NCBI GenBank assembly: GCA_949288485.1
Contig: CASEKC010000007.1
Coordinates: forward strand, 1 to 55,317
Direction: 5' to 3'
DNA length: 55,317 nucleotides
Origin: an uncultured bacterium
GTDB lineage: Bacteria > Bacillota_I > Bacilli_A > RFN20 > CAG-826
Shown here: positions 27,116 to 32,653 of the stretch, in pieces
Layout of the letters: each line of letters opens with the position of its first letter
Position numbering within the stretch: position 1 is the first letter of the stretch
Made by a program: the position numbers and the translations under genes
The notes under the pieces: model-generated
What the model saw: only the letters and a program-made list of their open reading frames with translations
The model's database searches: none
Told to the model about the DNA's origin: nothing

Positions 27116-29029
27116 TTATTTGTATTTTTTATGAATCATTAATGTTAATGAGTGACAAACACAAAGAAAAGTAACTCCAACATCTGCAAAAATTGCTATC
27201 CACATAATATAAGCAGGAATAAGATTAAGCGTTGCAATTATTACAGCAATTAACTTAATTAAAATGGCAAAAACTATATTAATATAAACTACATTTAATG
27301 TTCTTTTAGCGATATGTTTTCCCTTTACTAAAGTTGATAATTTATCATCCATTATAACAATATCACTAGCTTCAATAGCGGCATCACTACCAATTCCACC
27401 CATTGAAATTCCTAAATCAACAATTCCCATTGAAGGAGCATCGTTTACACCATCTCCACAAAAAGCAACTTTTTTATGTGTTTTATCGTTTTCAATTTTT
27501 TTAACTTCCTCAACTTTATCTAAAGGTAAAAGATTAGCTTTTACGTTATCAATATGACATAAAGAAGCAACATAATTAGCGGTTTCTAAATTATCACCGG
27601 TTAACATATAAGTGTTTTTAATACCAATCTTTTTTAAATCAATTAATGCTTTTTTGCTATCTTCTTTAATTTCATCTTTTATAACCATTGATCCTAAAAA
27701 TTTATTATCATACGCAACATAAATTATTGTTCCAACTTCTTTATTTTCGATAAATTCAATATTATGTCTTTTTAATAATTTAATATTCCCTACAAGAAGC
27801 AGCTTATTTTTATATAAGCCTTCAATACCTTCTCCTTCAACTGTTTTATCATCTTTCCATTCACTTATATCAATATTTGATTTATCTTCTCCAATAATTG
27901 ATAAAGCAATTGGATGAAGTGAGTTATATTCGGCAATTTTTGCTAAAGATAAGATTTCTTCTTTAGAAATATCATTTAAAGCAGGAATAATATCTGTTAA
28001 AACAAAGTTTCCTTTAGTAATTGTTCCGGTTTTATCTAAAATAACAGTATCAAGTTTAGATAAATCTTCTAAATAAGCACTGCCTTTAATAAGCATCTTT
28101 ATTTTACTAGCTTCTCCAATTCCAACAAAATAAGCCATCGGAACTGATAAAACAAGTGCACATGGACAAGAAACAACTAAAAGAGAAGCCGCGTTAAAAA
28201 AGGAATTACTCCAAACATTTAAAGAGGTATAATCTCCAAAAAATGGTGTAATAAGGGCAATAAGCAAAGCAAGAATTAAAACAATTGGTGTGTAATATTT
28301 ACAAAATTTAGATATAAATCTTTCATTTTTTGTTTTTGTATTAGTAGCATTTTCAACCATATCCATAATTTTTGAAACGGTTGAATCATAAAATGGTTTG
28401 CTTACTTTAATAATTAAAGGCGAACCTTTATTAATAACTCCACTTAAAACAACATCTCCTTCTTTAACTCTTTTAGGAACAGGCTCACCAGTTAAAGAAG
28501 AAGTATCTAAAAAAGATTCTCCTTTATAAACATTTCCATCTAGTGGAATTCTTTCTCCATTTTTTACAATAATTAAATCATCAACATTTACATCATACGG
28601 ATCAACATTTTTTTCTATTCCATCAATATATAAAGTTGCTTTATCTGATCTAATATCTAAAACTTCTTTAATAGATTTTCTAGATTTATTTACGGCATAA
28701 TCTTCAAATTTTTCACCGATTTGGAAAAATAAAACAACCGCTAAACCTTCAACGTATTCTCCAACAATAAAAGCAACAATAGAAGCAATTAAAGTTAGGG
28801 TTATTTCATCAAAAAATCTTTTTTTCTTAAAATTTTTAAAAGTTTTAATTAAAAAATCATATATTAATAATAAATAAGCAAGAAGTGATAATGGTAAGAT
28901 AATTAATGTTTTAACATCACTAATCCATAATTTATTATCTCCAATACTAAAAGATAATATTAACATTGGAATAGTTATAATAATTCCAAAGATAATTGCA
29001 AAAATGTCATATTTTTCTTTTTTCGACAT
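27116..29029 (-). CDS. P1B-type heavy-metal ATPase (Zn/Cd exporter type)
   Basis: Exports soft divalent metal across the cytoplasmic membrane. The 637-residue chain contains the CPC metal site SCPCALVLSVPMAY (C288 and C290), actuator SLTGEPVPK, phosphorylation motif DKTGTITKGN (D332), HP motif SLHPIALSI, TGDN and GDGVNDAP. The N-terminal metal-binding domain is missing from the chain and is encoded as a separate 70-residue protein upstream. Zn2+/Cd2+ specificity is inferred mainly from the regulator. The start is ATG at 29029 with AAGGTG just upstream; an earlier in-frame GTG is part of that ribosome-binding site. Third gene of an arsR-HMA-ATPase operon. Confidence 0.9.
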   Translation of the reverse strand: MSKKEKYDIFAIIFGIIITIPMLILSFSIGDNKLWISDVKTLIILPLSLLAYLLLIYDFLIKTFKNFKKKRFFDEITLTLIASIVAFIVGEYVEGLAVVLFFQIGEKFEDYAVNKSRKSIKEVLDIRSDKATLYIDGIEKNVDPYDVNVDDLIIVKNGERIPLDGNVYKGESFLDTSSLTGEPVPKRVKEGDVVLSGVINKGSPLIIKVSKPFYDSTVSKIMDMVENATNTKTKNERFISKFCKYYTPIVLILALLIALITPFFGDYTSLNVWSNSFFNAASLLVVSCPCALVLSVPMAYFVGIGEASKIKMLIKGSAYLEDLSKLDTVILDKTGTITKGNFVLTDIIPALNDISKEEILSLAKIAEYNSLHPIALSIIGEDKSNIDISEWKDDKTVEGEGIEGLYKNKLLLVGNIKLLKRHNIEFIENKEVGTIIYVAYDNKFLGSMVIKDEIKEDSKKALIDLKKIGIKNTYMLTGDNLETANYVASLCHIDNVKANLLPLDKVEEVKKIENDKTHKKVAFCGDGVNDAPSMGIVDLGISMGGIGSDAAIEASDIVIMDDKLSTLVKGKHIAKRTLNVVYINIVFAILIKLIAVIIATLNLIPAYIMWIAIFADVGVTFLCVCHSLTLMIHKKYK

Positions 29030-29064
29030 ATATATCACCTTCTTTTTTAACTAATATATAAAAT

Positions 29065-29277
29065 TTATTTAATTCTTTTTAAAGTTAATCCGTCTTCAAA
29101 ATTTTTAGCGATTGTGAAAATTTGATTTTCACAATCGCTAGATAAATCAACAATAAGTTTTAAAGTCATAAAATTAACTATAGCTTTATTAACTCCGTTA
29201 ATTTTCTTTATTTTTTCTTCAAATTCTCTTGCACAATTAGCACAATCTAATCCTTTAATAATATAAATTCTTTCCAT
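29065..29277 (-). CDS. Free-standing HMA metal-binding protein
   Basis: A 70-residue single heavy-metal-associated domain with the metal motif GLDCANC (C12 and C15) near the N terminus and the usual beta-alpha-beta pattern (INGVNKAIVNFMTLKLIVD). The Asp next to the first Cys is typical of domains that favour Zn, Cd or Pb over Cu(I). It probably works as the detached N-terminal domain or chaperone of the ATPase whose gene begins 35 nt downstream. GAGGGGAG lies upstream, across the end of the regulator gene. Confidence 0.88.
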   Translation of the reverse strand: MERIYIIKGLDCANCAREFEEKIKKINGVNKAIVNFMTLKLIVDLSSDCENQIFTIAKNFEDGLTLKRIK

Positions 29278-29643: not shown

Positions 29644-29673
29644 ATAATAGTTGAACAACTATTCAACTGTCAA
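29644..29673 (-). promoter_or_regulatory. ArsR-operon promoter with embedded operator
   Basis: On the minus strand TTGACA (29668-29673), an 18-nt spacer and TATTAT (29644-29649). The inverted repeat AGTTGAA-N6-TTCAACT (29649-29668) fills the spacer and matches the SmtB/CzrA operator core TGAA-N6-TTCA. Confidence 0.88.
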
Positions 29674-29797: not shown

Positions 29798-30334
29798 ATG
29801 GAAAATTTAATTGTTTATAAAAGTGATACTGGTTTTACTAAAAAATATGTTGATTCTTTAGAAAGAAGATTACCAGAATCAAAAGTAGTTGATATTAAAA
29901 AATTTAAGGTAAAAATGACAAAGGATGTTGATTTTATATTTTTTGGAGGGCCATTAAGAAATAGCAAAATACTTGGTTTAGATAAATTTTTAAAACATTA
30001 CGAAAAGTTTAAAGATAAAAATATATTCATTTTTTGTACAGGAATTGAACCTATTACTGATGAAAAGAAAGATATAGTTATAACTTCTAATGGATTAAAT
30101 TATTATCATGTTAGACTCTATCTTCTTCCAGGAGGTATGGATTATTCAAAAATGAGCAAAATCATGCAAAAAATGATGAAAATTGGTTTAGAAGCTGCAG
30201 CTAAAAAACAAAATTTACCTTTAGATCAAATAAGCGCAAGATTAACTACACCAATGGATTTAACAGATGTTTCTAAACTTGACAAAATGTTAGATGTTTA
30301 TCATCGTTTAAAAATTAATAAAAATAATAAATAA
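29798..30334 (+). CDS. Flavodoxin-domain protein
   Basis: The 178-residue protein begins with an FMN phosphate loop (YKSDTGFTKKY, residues 7-17). It continues with a flavodoxin-like strand FIFFGGPLRN and FIFCTGIEP, typical of the Flavodoxin_5/HemG-like group. The C-terminal helix region (SKMSKIMQKMMKIGLEAAAK) is Met/Lys-rich. Likely a flavin-binding electron carrier or oxidoreductase of unknown partner. It appears leaderless (-10 box 9 nt before ATG). copA follows 45 nt downstream and may be partly co-transcribed. Confidence 0.78.
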   Translation: MENLIVYKSDTGFTKKYVDSLERRLPESKVVDIKKFKVKMTKDVDFIFFGGPLRNSKILGLDKFLKHYEKFKDKNIFIFCTGIEPITDEKKDIVITSNGLNYYHVRLYLLPGGMDYSKMSKIMQKMMKIGLEAAAKKQNLPLDQISARLTTPMDLTDVSKLDKMLDVYHRLKINKNNK

Positions 30335-30379: not shown

Positions 30380-32653
30380 ATGGAAAAAGAATATAGTGTT
30401 AAAAATATGCACTGTGCAGCATGTAAGATAAATGTAGAAAATGCTGCTAAAAAGGTTGATGGAGTTACTTCTTGCGAAGTAAATTTAATGACTAATAGTG
30501 CAAAAATATCTTTTGATGAAAAAAAGATTGATAAAGAAAAGTTAAAAAAAGCTATTAAGGATGCTGGATATGAATTAGTTGATGATTTTGATGAAGAAAG
30601 CGTCTATGAAAATAAAAAAGATTATAGAAGATTAATTAAAATAATTATTGGGTTTATTCTTCTTATTCCGCTTTTATTTTTTGGAATGGGAGGAATGTAT
30701 AGTGATATATTCCCTGAAATAATAAAAGAAAGTCCTTTTATTATTTCAAATGTTGTTCAATATGTAATAACTATTATTATTGTAATAATGTTTTTTGATT
30801 ATTATAAAAGTGGATTCTTATCTATTATAAAACTATCTTTTAATATGGATTCTCTCGTATTTTTAGGTAGTTTCTTCTCATTTGTATATTCAATTTATTT
30901 AACAATTAACGTTATCGTTAACCCAGGAATTTACCCTTTCTCCCATTTCCATTTATATTTAGATAGTGCCGCAATGGTTTTAGTTGTTGTTTCTTTGGGT
31001 AAATATATTGAAGATTTATCTAAAAATAAGGCAAAATCAACAATTCGCGCTCTTTTAGCATTACGTCCTAAAACAGCCCATGTCTTAGTTAATAATGAAA
31101 TTGTAGATACACCAACTAAACTCGTTAAATTAAATGATGTTTTAATAGTTAAACCAGGTGAAACTATTCCTTGCGATGGAGTTGTTCTAAGCGGAAAAAG
31201 TAGTGTTGATGAATCAATTATTAGTGGAGAATCTTTACCTGTATTTAAAAAAGAAGATGATAATGTTGTTGGTGGAAGTGTCAATAAAGAATCATCTTTA
31301 AAAATATTAGTCAATAAAGATAAAAAAGATAATTTATTAAATAAAATTGCTTCTTTAGTTAGCGAAGCAAGTAATATGAAAACACCTTTAACAAAAAAGG
31401 TTGATAAAGTTGCTAAAATATTTGTTCCTTTAGTCATGATTTTAGCGGTCATTGTCTTTATTGTTTGGATTACTTTAGGTTATACAATTGGTAATGAAAA
31501 TGGCGTTATTATTACTTCTTCACATTTTATCAATGGATTTGATGAAGCATTTACCTTTGCAGTTGGCGTATTAGTTATTTCTTGTCCATGTGCTTTAGGT
31601 CTTGCCACCCCTATTTCTTTACTTGTTGGATCATCGGTTTTTAGTAAAAATTTTGTATTAGTTCAAAAAAGTGAAGGAATTGAAAAAGTAAAAGATATTG
31701 ATTGTTTGGTTTTAGATAAAACTAACACTATTACAGAAGGCGAACTTACAGTTTCATATACCAATTTTAAGAAAGAATTATCTGATGAATTAAAATCTAA
31801 AATTTATACAATGGAATCTTATAGTGAACATCCTATTGCTAAAGCTATAACTTCCTATTTAAAAAATGATGTAAATACTTTAAACGATAAATTCATGATG
31901 AACGAAACTTTACCAGGAGCTGGAATTAAAGCAACTTTTAAAGATGAAGTTATTTATATAACAAATTTAACATATGCAAAAGATATCGTTTCCTTAGATG
32001 AAAATATCTTAAAAGAAGTAGATGATCGTTCATATAAAGGAGAAATTCCTATTTGCGTTTATAATAAAAATGGCGATATTTACGGCTTTTATTATTTAAA
32101 AGATAAACTTAAAGCTGAAAGTAAAGAATTTATCAAAGAAGCTAAAAAGAGATTTAAAAAGATTGTTTTATTAACTGGTGATAATAAAAACATTGCTTCA
32201 TATATTGCTAAAGAAGTTGGAATTGATGAAGTTATTAGTGAAGTTAAACCAACTGAAAAAGATAAGGAAATTATTAGACTTCAAAATGAAGGCTATAAAG
32301 TTATGATGGTTGGTGATGGAGTTAATGATTCTATCGCTTTAACTAGAAGTGATGTTGGTGTAACGGTTGCAAAAGGTAGTGATATTGCTTTAGCTAGTGC
32401 TGAATTTATCTTAATGAGATCTTCTTTAACCGATATATTTAAAATCTTAAATATATCAAAAAGGATTAGAAATAATATCTCATTTAACCTTTTCTGGGCA
32501 TTTATTTATAATGTTATCTTCATTCCAGTAGCAGCAGGTGTCTTTGCTAAACTTGGTTTTGTTCTAGAACCAATGTATTGTTCGATGTTAATGGCTTTAT
32601 CTAGCGTCACTGTTTGTTTAAATGCTTTAACATTATTTATTAAAAGAAACTAA
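30380..32653 (+). CDS. copA: CopA-type Cu(I)-exporting P1B ATPase with DKTNT motif
   Basis: Exports Cu(I). The 757-residue protein has one N-terminal HMA domain (MHCAAC, C12 and C15), eight membrane segments, CPC site [12 protein letters not shown] (C402 and C404), actuator ISGESLP, HP motif [16 protein letters not shown] and [10 protein letters not shown]. Copper residues are also visible in helix 7 (FIYN) and helix 8 (MALSSV). The phosphorylation motif reads DKTNTITEG (D446, N449), where nearly all P-type ATPases have DKTGT. All other catalytic motifs look intact. No ribosome-binding site; an inverted repeat precedes the ATG. Confidence 0.93.

Follow-up and report, generated by a model that had tools for sequence, protein, structure and literature searches.

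P-type ATPases go through a common catalytic cycle and are recognised by a textbook signature, the phosphorylation motif DKTGT, so that DKTNT and DKTKT proteins do not match it strictly and risk being overlooked or taken for defective. The closest described systems to the protein analysed here are the P1B-1 Cu+-ATPases (CopA; TIGR01511; ATP7A/ATP7B), whose signature we take to be CPC in TM6 together with YNX4P in TM7 and PX6MX2SSX[STN] in TM8. The P-type cycle itself is treated in PMC10654040. Among the 9,634 P-type ATPases of a 2014 UniProt survey, 99.77% carry DKTGT and 22 have a single change in the motif, the variants being suggested to be sequencing errors, non-functional or highly specialised (PMC3896382). 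In a CopA metagenomics study, DKTGT is present in all 10 synthesised genes (PMC11082258).

In the window (the whole stretch of 55,317 nucleotides that was analysed), a copA-like gene codes for DKTNT. An earlier reading made from the sequence alone had pointed to it as an exception to a nearly invariant Gly, a near-invariance that the survey figures bear out. By comparison with genes of the same genus, the same class and a species-wide collection, we consider it very probable that the product of this gene is a working Cu+-exporting P1B-1 ATPase, Gly having been replaced by Asn on the stem of a genus-level clade, where Asn has been fixed since. Like the published variants (PMC3896382) it has a single change in DKTGT, but here the change is clade-fixed and recurrent. 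A whole-word literature search for DKTNT and DKTKT found no paper with either, and as far as that search goes both the clade fixation and the recurrence of Asn are new. A natural, apparently selected and recurrent exception of this kind shows which residues are tolerated by the catalytic loop and may matter for the assessment of human copper ATPases altered at this position.

The copA gene and its neighbours

The CopA-type P1B ATPase gene is an intact open reading frame of 757 aa at 30380-32653 on the forward strand, assigned to the P1B-1 (Cu+) group from the reading frame, TIGR01511, Pfam and solved relatives. Direct reading of the window gives GAT AAA ACT AAC ACT in frame at 31715-31729, that is D-K-T-N-T where DKTGT is canonical, with the AAC codon of Asn449 at 31724-31726 and Asp446 as the presumed phosphorylated residue; sequence and reading frame thus agree with what the sequence-only reading had reported. 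Its statement that the other motifs are intact in a full-length frame holds as well, the A-domain loop being SGES and not TGES (residues 282-285; 31223-31234; TGES in part of the clade). The N-terminal HMA domain carries the metal-binding motif CAAC (C12-C15; 30413-30424), identified from the reading frame, Pfam and alignment, and the transmembrane metal-binding motif CPC (402-404; 31583-31591) was located by the spaced pattern and alignment. Alignment further placed HP in the nucleotide-binding domain (484-485; 31829-31834), TGDN (599-602; 32174-32185), GDGVND (645-650; 32312-32329), YNX4P of TM7 (710-716; 32507-32527) and PX6MX2SSVT of TM8 (731-744; 32570-32611), all on the same strand. In all 20 aligned orthologues the DKTNT motif (including D446, K447, T448 and T450, the Asp, Lys and Thr residues of D-K-T-x-T), TGDN and GDGVND are invariant, as are Y710, N711 and P716 of TM7 and P731, M738, S741, S742, V743 and T744 of TM8.

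Compared with P1B-1 Cu+-ATPases, the window protein is alike in HMA CxxC, CPC, GES, HP, TGDN and GDGxND and has the usual spacing from CPC to Asp; CPC, YNX4P and PX6MX2SSX[STN] are all present, the latter two (the last as PX6MX2SSxT) presumably being shared signatures of the group. It differs in having DKTNT, not DKTGT, in SGES, which occurs in part of its clade, and in Ala664, where 84 of the 113 DKTGT rows have Gly. The P1B features HMA domain, CPx motif and HP motif were found, and Pfam recognises the domains HMA, E1-E2_ATPase and Hydrolase (HAD). Profile scores were 488.5 bits for the copper ATPase subfamily TIGR01511 (cut-off 397), 539.7 bits for the heavy-metal ATPase subfamily TIGR01525 (cut-off 346.25) and 255.4 bits for the P-type ATPase profile TIGR01494 (cut-off 62.3), so that membership by profile holds; the strict motif PROSITE PS00154 (DKTGT) is absent. 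The best solved relatives, both by sequence and by fold (Foldseek), are ATP7B, HMA4 and bacterial copper ATPases. An AlphaFold2 model built on the 20 orthologues was mediocre as a whole (pLDDT 69.2, pTM 0.49), with a mean pLDDT of 83 across residues 441-450, the motif region. A search for the spaced pattern CPC-N123-DKTNT gave a single hit in the window and none in 100 shuffles.

Directly upstream of copA, at 29798-30334 on the same strand, lies a gene for a flavodoxin-domain protein of 178 aa (PF12724, 55 bits). It is upstream of copA in 18 of the 19 relatives' loci, being absent from that place in L023 and some hundred bases away in L022, L024 and L025. In the flanking DNA of L029 and L030, two CopA genes of the genus with an ordinary DKTGT, no such gene was detected. 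The flavodoxin-domain protein might serve copper handling as a redox partner. On the reverse strand, a zntA-like gene for a Zn/Cd P1B ATPase (27116-29038), identified by profile and motif reading, has a normal DKTGT and served as internal control. Between arsR and zntA, a free-standing HMA domain protein of 70 aa is encoded at 29065-29277 (reverse strand), and Pfam detected no such domain in ZntA, which indicates that the metal-binding domain is here encoded as a separate gene. The arsR-hma-zntA genes have a strong sigma-70-like promoter (11/12) at 29644-29673 (reverse strand), overlapping the inverted repeat GTTGAACAACTATTCAAC, which is likely an ArsR-type operator.

Asn449 in the genus and residues at the site within the class

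The genome, a draft of 1.36 Mb in 15 contigs, holds six P-type ATPases by Pfam PF00122. The other five, ZntA and four more, all read DKTGT, which supports the earlier argument against a genome-wide drift. Relatives were searched in 96 genomes, 95 of which gave a match to the window CopA. The 20 best matches (the own genome and 19 genomes of the same genus, 53-96% identical) all have DKTNT, so that Asn is indeed a clade trait, a point for which the sequence-only reading had proposed an alignment of related CopA proteins; the ten further loci compared (38-42% identical) have DKTGT without exception. Among the relatives Asn is encoded by AAC or AAT and the adjoining codons vary too, and no reversal of Asn was seen among the 20 aligned orthologues. 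A sequencing or assembly error, for which one could invoke the draft state of the assembly, is refuted in practice: 20 genomes share the residue, with codons that differ and flanks that have diverged, and Gly to Asn needs two base changes. The probability of such an error is negligible. Nor is recoding needed, since AAT and AAC alternate and the conserved Asn residues of GDGVND and TGDN come from the same standard translation; codon reassignment, a frameshift and a pseudogene were rejected for the window gene in view of the intact frame and normal AAY use.

Across 15 pairs among six clade genes, dN/dS ranged from 0.05 to 0.22 (Nei-Gojobori), from which the window copA is judged to be under purifying selection. 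The 26 genus genomes (G000-G025) comprise 20 with a DKTNT protein, each once above 400 bits, three (G006, G007, G020) that have instead a 40-42% identical CopA, always DKTGT, and lack the DKTNT protein, and three (G008, which is 52% complete, G011 and G019) with no match above 400 bits. For the 20 DKTNT genomes, several of them 70-80% complete, no second match of CopA strength (above 400 bits) is listed among the top candidates scored per genome. Seven of these genomes are part of the class sample described below and have exactly one CPC-spaced DKTGT pump each, which in the own genome is the adjoining ZntA. The Asn form thus appears to be the sole CopA of these bacteria. These data also bear on the view that catalysis was lost and that the protein is inactive or repurposed as a metal sensor or binder. 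In its favour, the changed residue sits in the most conserved motif, and the human ATP7A change T1048I, in the last Thr of this motif, was reported in a Menkes patient (PMC3489546); but with the other catalytic motifs invariant in 20 of 20 orthologues (only the first residue of TGE varies, between Thr and Ser), the low dN/dS and the lack of any further listed match of CopA strength in the 20 genomes, we regard such a loss as very improbable. The statement that CopA looks functional is upheld as far as sequence can tell, by the intact frame and the purifying selection.

Within the class, 395 genomes were scanned for CPC followed at the exact spacing by DKT-x-T. CPC-spaced DKTGT is present in 311 genomes, DKTNT in seven, all of the window genus. 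Codons with A, C or T as first base were found at the fourth position in 14 genomes, corresponding to these seven Asn cases, five cases of DKTKT and two chance matches, and the codons GAN, GCN and GTN in one genome, as DKTAT. Ser, Asp, Arg, Glu and Val were not found among the in-frame P1B matches of the 395 class genomes. The DKTKT proteins are in-frame P1B ATPases of five of the 28 genomes of family f23, spread over four genera (L201, L202, L203, L205 and L206 in genomes G386, G349, G290, G321 and G121, respectively; the frames of L201 and L202 are cut at the 5' end), and well-supported branches force at least three changes. Like the proteins of the window clade they are CPC pumps in which this position is not Gly, the residue being Lys there and Asn here. 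Judged by these counts Gly is strongly preferred at the site, yet Asn, Lys and Ala are natural alternatives. Ala was seen once in the 395 genomes, in L208 of genome G234, a P1B ATPase of 622 aa with a GCG codon. L200 (17 aa), L204 (16 aa; the sixth pattern match in family f23) and L209 (not an ATPase) were chance matches and were dropped. Beyond P1B, a PEG-spaced pattern with A, C or T as first base of the codon, run as a pattern without DKTGT control, gave one match in 198 class genomes, which was not a P-type ATPase; two of the own genome's pumps have PEG at the spacing of this pattern. In IMG/VR, a CPCA-spaced pattern for codons not starting with G, without Gly control, gave 0 matches.

Recurrence of DKTNT in other P1B ATPases

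The same Asn change recurs in unrelated P1B ATPases, which like the Lys and Ala variants had not been foreseen by the sequence-only reading. Hereto, one genome per species from 84,980 species was scanned on contigs of at least 3 kb for the exact pattern of CPC, 123 bases and DKTNT, with Asn codons only. This gave 35 matching stretches, 34 of which have CPC and DKTNT in frame in P1B-type ATPase frames; the remaining one, L067 of Pseudomonas, was a chance match in a frame of 80 aa and was dropped. A tblastn comparison with the window protein assigns 19 of the 34 to the window clade (48-96% identical) and shows 14 others to be 22-34% identical; L037, which was not part of that comparison, is placed apart from the clade by the 154-row tree described below. 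The 15 non-clade proteins come from four Chlamydiae, two Halomonadaceae, Succinivibrio, Izemoplasmatales, Holdemania, Erysipelotrichia, Zixiibacteriota, Campylobacterota, Clostridia and two further Bacilli records. Eight of them were compared with NCBIfam and all eight match TIGR01525, seven over the cut-off and L047 just under it. L048 and L050 score over the cut-off of the Cd subfamily and under that of the Cu subfamily, and as Zn/Cd-type pumps with DKTNT they indicate that the change is not confined to copper pumps.

Some of these frames lack a motif or are cut short. L037, L047, L052, L058 and L063 are without a literal TGD, and several other non-clade frames are cut by the end of the sequenced DNA. 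In the Campylobacterota pump L052, Asn replaces Thr in the TGE of the A-domain, and a simple scan found no HP or TGD match. The frame of L053 (Chlamydiae) ends at 471 aa without an in-frame GDGxND, with further matching pieces downstream, and the gene is possibly disrupted. Close relatives with Gly exist as well: DKTGT is read in L140-L153, the 14 proteins closest to the Halomonadaceae pair (58-68% identical), and in L173-L175, which stand next to the four Chlamydiae (49-54% identical). Such natural Asn/Gly pairs lend themselves to the question of why Gly is kept so strictly elsewhere.

A tree of 154 rows was built with the motif columns removed; L039, L045, L057 and L123 were left out of it as shorter copies of L128, L121, L120 and L042. 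In this tree Asn needs nine changes, seven of them forced by well-supported branches, and with seven more rows again nine changes, six of them forced. A careful mixture-model tree of 40 rows, restricted to the CopA and Chlamydiae types, needs five changes, of which well-supported branches force only two, and 0% of 200 bootstrap trees had a single change. A single origin of all DKTNT proteins was thus rejected by both the 154-row and the 40-row tree. Separate origins of Asn between P1B types are well supported by these phylogenies, and within the Bacilli-type CopA group the number of gains as against losses of Asn is less certain, the forced changes being seven, six or two depending on the tree. 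The joining of L047 and L052 on the trees may be a long-branch artefact. In the 154-row tree, the partial protein L044 has zero branch length to L016 of the same-genus genome G021. The stem of the window clade is long, with 0.73 and 1.1 changes per site in the 154-row and 40-row tree, respectively.

Possible mechanism and compensating residues

Columns that are conserved in DKTGT CopA proteins but changed in the clade were listed and compared on independent pairs. None co-varied significantly with Asn, the 7 to 9 independent pairs being too few after correction over 213 columns; for the best columns (434, 249, 487, 287, 356 and 664) an average of 2.5 to 3.6 of 7 pairs showed a change in the same direction. 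Residue 651, directly after GDGVND, is Ser in 26 of 41 Asn rows, nearly all of one clade, and in the 113 Gly rows it is Ser in 5 and Thr in 17. The first residue of the A-domain TGE is Ser in 17 of 41 Asn rows and 9 of 113 Gly rows, and is Thr or Ser within the window clade. Both were dropped as partners of Asn, since they vary with DKTGT too.

Motif I of the HAD superfamily has the form DxDx[T/V], and we take Asn449 to occupy its second x, a variable position. After the replacement of Gly by Asn at the fourth residue of the motif, which would have occurred on the clade stem and been kept since, Asp446 would still be phosphorylated by ATP, with Lys447, Thr448, Lys627, Asp646 and Asn649/Asp650 in their usual roles. 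Since none of the 20 orthologues departs from Asp446 or its partner residues, the usual P-type cycle is the simplest reading. We infer that copper is the substrate, that the protein is catalytically competent and that it is the HAD fold which makes Asn tolerable. The retained mechanism is weakened by the fact that no compensating change supports it, no column being found to co-vary, and the long clade stem leaves room for another functional change.

Within the reading of a working pump, two histories can be envisaged. Asn may have been fixed by chance on the long stem as a near-neutral change and then locked by epistasis, making it hard to revert, to which we give about an even chance; the length of the stem, the confinement of Asn to one genus in the class sample and the occurrence of Asn at this place elsewhere in the HAD superfamily fit this course. 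It is at odds with the 99.77% conservation of DKTGT in the survey (PMC3896382), which implies that most changes here are costly. Alternatively, Asn or Lys could shift the E1P-E2P balance or the rate of phosphoryl transfer and so suit a special habitat. Such adaptive retuning could account for recurrence in several P1B types, for the missing reversals among the aligned orthologues and for the excess in the class sample of Asn and Lys (7 and 5 cases), which are two base changes away from Gly codons, over one-step residues (Ala, 1 case). It is nevertheless rather unlikely, since no co-varying partner was found, a tandem GG to AA mutation would give exactly Asn or Lys without selection, and the seven Asn genomes represent one origin, leaving few events in the class sample. 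More speculative, and in our opinion doubtful, is the idea that P1B ATPases have an evolvable control point in the fourth residue of DKTGT, where Asn or Lys, taking the place of Gly independently in several lineages, would put a polar or charged group next to the phosphoaspartate and reset how long the phosphorylated states of a natural copper pump last.

A precedent at the level of the fold is present in the own genome, where a YqeG-type HAD phosphatase (L199; TIGR01668) reads DLDNT, which indicates that the HAD fold can hold Asn at this site. HAD phosphatases with a DxDNT motif I and the window CopA thus have Asn at the equivalent place, whereas the phosphatases are soluble, carry Asp at the position of the Thr in the D-K-T of P-type ATPases, and carry out no transport.
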